Source: a bacterium
GTDB taxonomy: Bacteria; DYJV01; JALVYZ01
Length of the DNA: 8,472 bases
Reading direction: 5' to 3'
Assembly: GCA_027037705.1 (NCBI GenBank)
Contig: JALVYZ010000311.1
Coordinates: 1-8,472, forward strand
Part shown: positions 4,974 through 6,992 of the stretch, in pieces
Numbering within the stretch: the first letter of the stretch is position 1
Layout: each line of letters begins with the position of its first letter
Position numbers and translations under genes: made by a program
The notes under the pieces: model-generated
Databases searched by the model: none
The model's input: only the letters and a program-made list of their open reading frames with translations
What the model was told of the DNA's origin: nothing

Positions 4974-6992
4974 ATGAAGTTAATCAATTCTCTTTTTATT
5001 ATATTAATTATTTTATTACTATTTTATACAAAACCATATAAATATAATGATTGGAAAATATATCAAAATAAATGGAAAATTTCAAAAATAAAAATACTTA
5101 AAAAGGAAATTTATAATACAGATAATAACACATTAAAAAAAAACTTACTCAAAAAATTAGAAAAAATAAAAAAATATAAAATAAAACTGAGATCAATTTA
5201 TGTAAAAAAATGGAAAAGAGAAGAGTTTTGTATAACCTGTCATATTGGAATAAAATCAATTAGCTCATCTCATCCAAATGAAATTTTTGGTTGTGTCATA
5301 TGCCATGGCGGTGATCCTTTAGCTATTACAGTAAAAGATGCACATAAAGGATTGATTGGCAAAGAAAATCCTGCAGACTTAAAATATGCAGAAAAATCTT
5401 GCGGACAAATTGCTCCTGATGGGACGAAATGTCATCCAGATATTGTTAAAAGAGTTAAAACATCTTTAATGTATTCTATGATAGGAGTTATAACATCTTT
5501 AAGATACCAGTGGCATGCCCAAAATGATAAAAAACCTCATTTTGCCACTCATGATATTTCTGATCTTTATGGAAATAGATACTTAGAGATAAAAAATAAA
5601 CATTTTGCTGATAGATATTTTAGAAAAATGTGTGCAATGTGCCATATTGGGGTTAAAAATCCTTTCTCTACAAGCAATCACTCTTCAGGTTGCGGTGCTT
5701 GCCATGTTATATATGAAAATAACAGTCACTATAAAGGAGAAGATCCAACAATTAACAAATCAGAACATGGTCATCCGCCATTCCATACTTTAACAGCTAA
5801 CATTCCAACCTCTCAATGTGTAAAATGCCATAATAGAAGCAGTAGATATGGTTTATCTTATGAAGGTCAAGCTGAAAACGATTTTTATCCTGTTCCACTA
5901 CATAATGGTGAATTTTCAAAAAATTATTTACTTGGAAATAGATATTTTTACCAATTTCAAAGTGATATTCATTTTAAAAATGGAATGGATTGTATAGATT
6001 GTCACACTTCAAAAGGAATTATGGGAGATGGAAAAATTTATTCAAGAATGTTTGAACAAACAAAAGTTAAATGTGAAGATTGCCATGGGACATACAATAG
6101 TAAGCCGAAAATTTATGAAATTAAATATCTTGACGATCCTTTACTTGAGATTAGTTTATATAATCTAAAATTAGGAGATAAAATTGTAAAAACTACAAAA
6201 GATGACTTTTTATGGAATATTAAATTTGATGGAAAAGATTATGTTTTAACAACAAAAAATTCAAATAAAAGGTTAAAAATAAAATTAATTTATAAAGACA
6301 AAAATCATAAACCTAATTTATGCAATAAAAAACTTGAATGTTATTCCTGTCACTTTTCCTGGACAACTTTATGTTATGGGTGCCATGTAGGATACAATAG
6401 TAAATTATCTCAAAGAGATGCCCTATCAGGTAAAAAAACAAAAGGATACTGGTATGAAAGAAGAACCTTTACAAGATACTCTGATATGGTTCTAATAAAA
6501 AATCAAGAAAATAAATATTCACCAGCACAATTCTGTCAATCACAGGTAACTATACCAGAATTAAATATTTACAACAAAGTTTTTATTCATAAAGATAACA
6601 CAACTTCTTATGTTGTTGTGCCAGTCCAGCCTCATACTATTACAAAAGAATCAAAAAGATGTGGAGATTGCCATAATAATTCAATGGCTGTTGGACTCGG
6701 AAAAGGTTCTTTAAAATTTACTGATAATGGTTCAATTTCATTCATTCATATATATAGTTCAAAAAAATCTCATTTAAATGTTAATTTCCCAATGGAGAGC
6801 ATTGTATCTTCTGATGGCAAAATTCAGTATCAAAGTGTTTCAGATGATAGATTTAAGGTTTTGAAAAGAAAAGAAATTTTAAAGATTTTAAAAGTTGGCA
6901 AATGTACTTTTTGTCATACAAAATATTCAGATAAGTTCTTTAAATATTATAAAGAAAAGCGTCCATGCCCATTTAATAAACAGAACTACTAA
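4974..6992 (+). CDS. Membrane-anchored multiheme cytochrome c, eleven CXXCH plus one CX9CH motif
   Basis: From the ATG at 4974 the protein has 672 residues. A TTG at 4938 would add 12 residues in front of the membrane segment and is less likely. Residues 5-18 form a hydrophobic helix with no cleavage site, so it is probably a membrane anchor. Residues 24-83 are a lysine-rich, Cys-free helical stalk. CXXCH motifs start at Cys 86, 107, 220, 240, 282, 340, 367, 456, 467, 563 and 644. Cys143 with Cys153-His154 forms a CX9CH, followed by PDIVKRVKTSLM. A Cys-free, probably beta-rich insert spans about 375-450. Stretches such as GMDCIDCHTS with GIMGDG, and CGDCHNNSMAVGLGKG, recall large multiheme cytochromes of anaerobic respiration. 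Role is likely extracytoplasmic electron transfer. No quinol oxidase, porin or catalytic partner is adjacent, so the electron donor and acceptor are unknown. Confidence 0.92.
   Translation: MKLINSLFIILIILLLFYTKPYKYNDWKIYQNKWKISKIKILKKEIYNTDNNTLKKNLLKKLEKIKKYKIKLRSIYVKKWKREEFCITCHIGIKSISSSHPNEIFGCVICHGGDPLAITVKDAHKGLIGKENPADLKYAEKSCGQIAPDGTKCHPDIVKRVKTSLMYSMIGVITSLRYQWHAQNDKKPHFATHDISDLYGNRYLEIKNKHFADRYFRKMCAMCHIGVKNPFSTSNHSSGCGACHVIYENNSHYKGEDPTINKSEHGHPPFHTLTANIPTSQCVKCHNRSSRYGLSYEGQAENDFYPVPLHNGEFSKNYLLGNRYFYQFQSDIHFKNGMDCIDCHTSKGIMGDGKIYSRMFEQTKVKCEDCHGTYNSKPKIYEIKYLDDPLLEISLYNLKLGDKIVKTTKDDFLWNIKFDGKDYVLTTKNSNKRLKIKLIYKDKNHKPNLCNKKLECYSCHFSWTTLCYGCHVGYNSKLSQRDALSGKKTKGYWYERRTFTRYSDMVLIKNQENKYSPAQFCQSQVTIPELNIYNKVFIHKDNTTSYVVVPVQPHTITKESKRCGDCHNNSMAVGLGKGSLKFTDNGSISFIHIYSSKKSHLNVNFPMESIVSSDGKIQYQSVSDDRFKVLKRKEILKILKVGKCTFCHTKYSDKFFKYYKEKRPCPFNKQNY

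Follow-up and report, generated by a model that had tools for sequence, protein, structure and literature searches.

ExtM carries 12 hemes (PMC5877670). The Geobacter sulfurreducens protein (GSU2935) is encoded within the extHIJKLMNOPQS cluster, and its third heme site is CX2CH in the Geobacter/Geomonas-type sequences that we collected. Heme motifs with a long gap between the two cysteines have been described in other multiheme cytochromes. The nanowire cytochrome OmcZ, an eight-heme filament subunit, binds heme 1 through a CX14CH motif whose extra residues form a loop (PMC9473688, PMC11208441), and removal of this loop is reported to have lowered the reduction of soluble acceptors (PMC11208441). 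The octaheme sulfite reductases MccA and SirA have a CX15CH motif (CX12NKGCH in SirA) for an essential, probably catalytic heme, and this motif needs a dedicated synthase (PMC6976685, PMC10663686), CcsA1 in the case of MccA and SirE/SirG in the case of SirA.

We identified a CX9CH motif at the third heme site of an ExtM-like cytochrome. The complete gene occupies positions 4974–6992 on the + strand of the window (the whole 8,472-nucleotide stretch of DNA that was analyzed), with an ATG at 4974 and its stop at 6992, and encodes 672 amino acids. A single N-terminal helix (residues 2–18) is predicted, which would be a membrane anchor or signal. The best curated family is ExtM (NCBIfam NF040943; 369.8 bits, E 2e-110), which matches residues 76–657, while Pfam yields only short cytochrome c3/c7 pieces. 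The protein shares with ExtM both this homology along its length and a total of twelve heme sites, eleven of them canonical CXXCH and one CX9CH. However, the score falls below the curated cut-off of 800 bits, and no ext gene cluster surrounds the gene; nor is there an ext neighbor in genome G001. The genes flanking it in the window encode Opp/Dpp-type ATPases, a UDP-sugar dehydrogenase-like protein and a hydantoinase/carboxylase-like protein. Because of the low score and the absence of ext neighbors we refer to the protein as ExtM-like rather than as ExtM. The features of the gene are as follows.

4974–6992, + strand: ExtM-like dodecaheme c-type cytochrome (reading frame; NCBIfam NF040943 ExtM, 370 bits; AlphaFold2 model)
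5229–5243, + strand: heme site 1, CITCH, residues 86–90 (sequence reading; DNA pattern scan)
5292–5306, + strand: heme site 2, CVICH, residues 107–111 (sequence reading; DNA pattern scan)
5343–5345, + strand: His124, a conserved histidine outside the heme motifs, shortly ahead of site 3 (H in 94/98; nearly invariant in the alignment)
5400–5435, + strand: heme site 3, CX9CH, Cys143, Cys153 and His154 (direct reading; C/C/H in 128/128 homologues)
5403–5429, + strand: linker GQIAPDGTK, nine residues between Cys143 and Cys153 (alignment with KSCGTKDCH of L084; tree)
5631–5645, + strand: heme site 4, CAMCH (sequence reading; DNA pattern scan)
5691–5705, + strand: heme site 5, CGACH (sequence reading; DNA pattern scan)
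5817–5831, + strand: heme site 6, CVKCH (sequence reading; DNA pattern scan)
5991–6005, + strand: heme site 7, CIDCH (sequence reading; DNA pattern scan)
6072–6086, + strand: heme site 8, CEDCH (sequence reading; DNA pattern scan)
6339–6353, + strand: heme site 9, CYSCH (sequence reading; DNA pattern scan)
6372–6386, + strand: heme site 10, CYGCH (sequence reading; DNA pattern scan)
6660–6674, + strand: heme site 11, CGDCH (sequence reading; DNA pattern scan)
6903–6917, + strand: heme site 12, CTFCH (sequence reading; DNA pattern scan)

Two canonical sites precede the CX9CH motif and nine follow it, and an independent scan for the DNA pattern recovered all eleven. The long motif had first been pointed out in a sequence-only reading, and direct reading bears out its place as the third site and its numbering: the codons of Cys143, Cys153 and His154 lie at 5400–5402, 5430–5432 and 5433–5435, with GQIAPDGTK between the cysteines. 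From its conservation, His124 is a possible axial ligand. Elsewhere in the protein, Cys450 (window positions 6321–6323; NLCNKKLECYSCH) replaces a histidine present in 120 of 131 aligned rows, and the nearest relative (L084) likewise has a cysteine (NQCNKNFECYTCH). Lying just ahead of site 9, the histidine of this column is probably an axial ligand, and either Cys450, in a His-to-Cys ligand change, or the nearby His445 may take the ligand role instead.

The motif was compared with homologues from 80 loci of our genome collection and further ones from genome searches, 130 non-identical sequences in all, 128 of which cover site 3. All 128 keep both cysteines and the histidine that follows the second, spaced as CX2CH in 83 and as CX4CH in 45; neither another spacing nor the loss of a cysteine was found among them. 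In a 73-row alignment, the columns of Cys143, Gly144, Cys153 and His154 are invariant. Since these columns are kept across the homologues, the motif is not a chance occurrence of C...CH. As judged from this conservation (C/C/H in 128/128, with the cysteines never lost), site 3 is an obligate heme site of the ExtM-like family, and only its spacing is altered in the window protein. The sequence-only reading had been right to expect a third heme at this position and to call the spacing unusual. It had also named independent variation or absence of the two cysteines as evidence against a heme site; this was looked for, and the cysteines never vary. On the other hand, the conserved CX9CH subfamily that it had proposed to look for is not borne out, as the window protein alone has the X9 form when set against 130 homologues from many phyla. 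The form is known from one sequence on one contig of one assembly, and the collection covers two genomes of the window's phylum, so that the closest relatives are thinly sampled. A literature search for a CX9CH heme motif gave a single hit, which was unrelated.

A spacing that is unique to a single sequence could be a sign that the heme at site 3 has been lost, leaving an eleven-heme protein with the loop as a remnant of decay. The earlier reading had offered the loss of covalent heme as an alternative. However, the site keeps all four conserved residues, and elsewhere the protein is well conserved, with no stops. Moreover, true loss does occur in this family, at sites 10 and 12 of some homologues, and there the cysteines are gone. 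We therefore regard loss of the heme as very unlikely.

The nearest relative, L084, comes from the one other genome available for this order and is 56% identical to the window protein; its third site reads KSCGTKDCH, a CX4CH motif. In a tree of 126 leaves the two are a sister pair with full support, and the spacing of site 3 requires four or more changes, including one on the window lineage. By this reconstruction the spacing would evolve slowly and yet does change. FastTree issued a long-branch warning for the deeper parts of the tree, and the pair connects to the other sequences through a weak branch; the sister pair is unaffected, but the tree does not settle the spacing of the deep ancestor at site 3. 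Compared with that of L084, the linker of the window protein has five more residues (15 bp, in frame), with an insertion point that cannot be placed exactly. Because the fully supported sister has CX4CH, a lengthening of CX4CH to CX9CH in the window lineage, by some five residues (an in-frame gain of 15 bp), is most likely. The 45 homologues with CX4CH, which come from Bacteroidota, Nitrospinota, Desulfobacterota and the window's own order, have the same site of the same protein already lengthened, with four residues between the cysteines where the window protein has nine.

With one genome and one contig to go on, in a fragmented assembly of 496 contigs, the 15 extra bases might instead be an error of sequencing or assembly. 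However, compared with the sister sequence the gene is longer here by exactly 15 bp, which keep the reading frame and introduce no stop. Nor is there a sign of a chimera, as no exact match of more than 10 bp turned up in the other cytochrome loci sampled or in the remainder of the window. An error thus appears highly improbable. We also considered whether the insert was copied from another cytochrome of the genome, an octaheme HAO-like protein in which the letters of NPDGTKGTCNACH resemble IAPDGTKCH; its DNA has no exact 10-mer in common with the compared region, and we attribute the resemblance to chance.

Heme site 1 is independently stretched in several ExtM-like homologues (L012, L157, L158, L162–L167 and L169–L171), of which three have CX4CH there and nine CX5CH, for example GCLAPGKCH. 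As the spacing varies at this site too, loops inside heme motifs seem to be tolerated in the family.

An AlphaFold2 model built on the 73-row alignment has a mean pLDDT of 87, with means of 84 for residues 141–150 and 91 for residues 151–160. In the DSSP assignment, residues 146 and 152 each form an isolated bridge. These features of the model fit a small hairpin in which a turn around APDG would bring the two cysteines together. Comparison with the PDB yielded no Foldseek match under E 0.001, and the VIA-align rows span only the N-terminal helices (17–73), which provides no usable fold match.

The sequence-only reading had raised the possibility of a special active-site heme or a special lyase, taking MccA as its precedent. 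The precedent stands, dedicated synthase included (PMC6976685), but it is incomplete in that the CX14CH motif of OmcZ was omitted (PMC9473688, PMC11208441). We searched the genome (G000; 2.05 Mb in 496 contigs, 93% complete) for heme lyases. Profile searches returned one PF01578 match, of the CcsA type, and one ResB, encoded side by side on contig C362 and together constituting System II. The CcsA-type protein scores 285 bits with the NCBIfam equivalog TIGR03144 (where it goes by the name 'CcsB'), whose cut-off is 188. System I was not found in the 93% complete assembly; it would have shown in the search, since CcmF and CcmC belong to PF01578, and the E. coli control was matched. Likewise, the assembly yielded neither a second CcsA-type protein nor a dedicated lyase resembling CcsA1 or SirE, though a copy in the absent 7% could have been missed, and the window contains no neighboring maturation gene.

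The specialized reading, in which CX9CH would hold a catalytic or substrate-trapping heme attached by a dedicated lyase as in MccA, has the example of SirA in its favor in addition to MccA, and the effect of loop removal in OmcZ as reported in PMC11208441. However, the window protein resembles MccA and SirA only in having a long gap between two heme cysteines; the gap is nine residues, there is no NKGCH, and the one PF01578 match and one ResB (93% complete assembly) give no sign of a dedicated synthase beside the general one. Every other homologue has plain CX2CH or CX4CH at site 3, which makes a special active-site heme unlikely, and we give very little credence to the specialized reading as a whole.

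By its gene content the organism is rich in multiheme cytochromes. CXXCH-like DNA patterns occur 157 times genome-wide compared with 18 for a reversed control, and the eight other cytochrome genes that we read together have 57 CXXCH motifs and no CH outside CXXCH. Further cytochromes with 8 to 10 hemes are found on contigs C63, C142 and C166. A second ExtM-like paralogue (L087:9082–10677, on C424) has 531 amino acids and 10 CXXCH motifs, with CX2CH at site 3. An octaheme HAO-like protein with 8 CXXCH motifs (L182/L173, on C18) is cut at the contig start; its best NCBIfam match, hydrazine dehydrogenase, reaches 52 bits, far under the cut-off.

If the general synthase cannot fit Cys143, the heme at site 3 might be held by one thioether, from Cys153 next to His154, or non-covalently. 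The dedicated synthases described for the long spacing of MccA and SirA (PMC6976685, PMC10663686), none of which was found here, would be consistent with this. However, Cys143 and the glycine following it are still present, the cysteines of site 3 are never lost in 128 homologues, and the long motif of OmcZ carries heme (PMC9473688). We consider such partial attachment unlikely. OmcZ and the window protein both have extra residues inside a heme c motif, which in OmcZ loop out with the heme bound. We do not claim a common family for the two, as the window protein has twelve sites rather than eight and its long motif is CX9CH at site 3 rather than CX14CH at heme 1.

The explanation that we favor, and consider probable, is that heme 3 is held by both cysteines across a loop gained in this lineage, is attached by the general System II synthase and serves as part of a wire. 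In this view site 3 is a heme c site obligate for the ExtM-like family, and a short insertion would have widened the gap between its cysteines. As in OmcZ, the extra residues, here those around the turn-forming APDG, would probably make a loop that leaves Cys143 and Cys153-His154 within reach of both vinyl groups and the iron of one and the same heme. The single general CcsA/ResB synthase would attach heme 3 along with the eleven CXXCH hemes, and electrons would pass along a twelve-heme chain in which heme 3 is a wire heme and not a catalytic site. We infer covalent attachment through both thioethers, together with the loop geometry, the handling by the general synthase and the wire role, the attachment from the conservation of the site. 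Should heme be attached there, the general synthase is most likely responsible, which would differ from MccA and SirA (PMC6976685, PMC10663686). That the two well-studied long motifs, the CX15CH of these proteins, need a dedicated synthase, and that none was found in the assembly, counts against our explanation.

We lean, if only slightly, toward the view that an unspecialized CcsA/ResB attaches heme to both the CX9CH and the CXXCH motifs of one protein. If this is true, recognition by the synthase would rest on the histidine and the second cysteine, with a loop ahead of them being tolerated, which runs against the rule of dedicated enzymes for long motifs. Spacings of CX4-5CH and of CX14-15CH have been reported for multiheme cytochromes, and that of the window protein falls between them; the natural series of CX2CH, CX4CH and CX9CH at one aligned site offers a test of how loose the general synthase is toward its substrates. 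Genome counts limited to CX2-5CH would score the window protein as an eleven-heme cytochrome. CX9CH is a new length of a known motif variation and probably not a new enzyme center.
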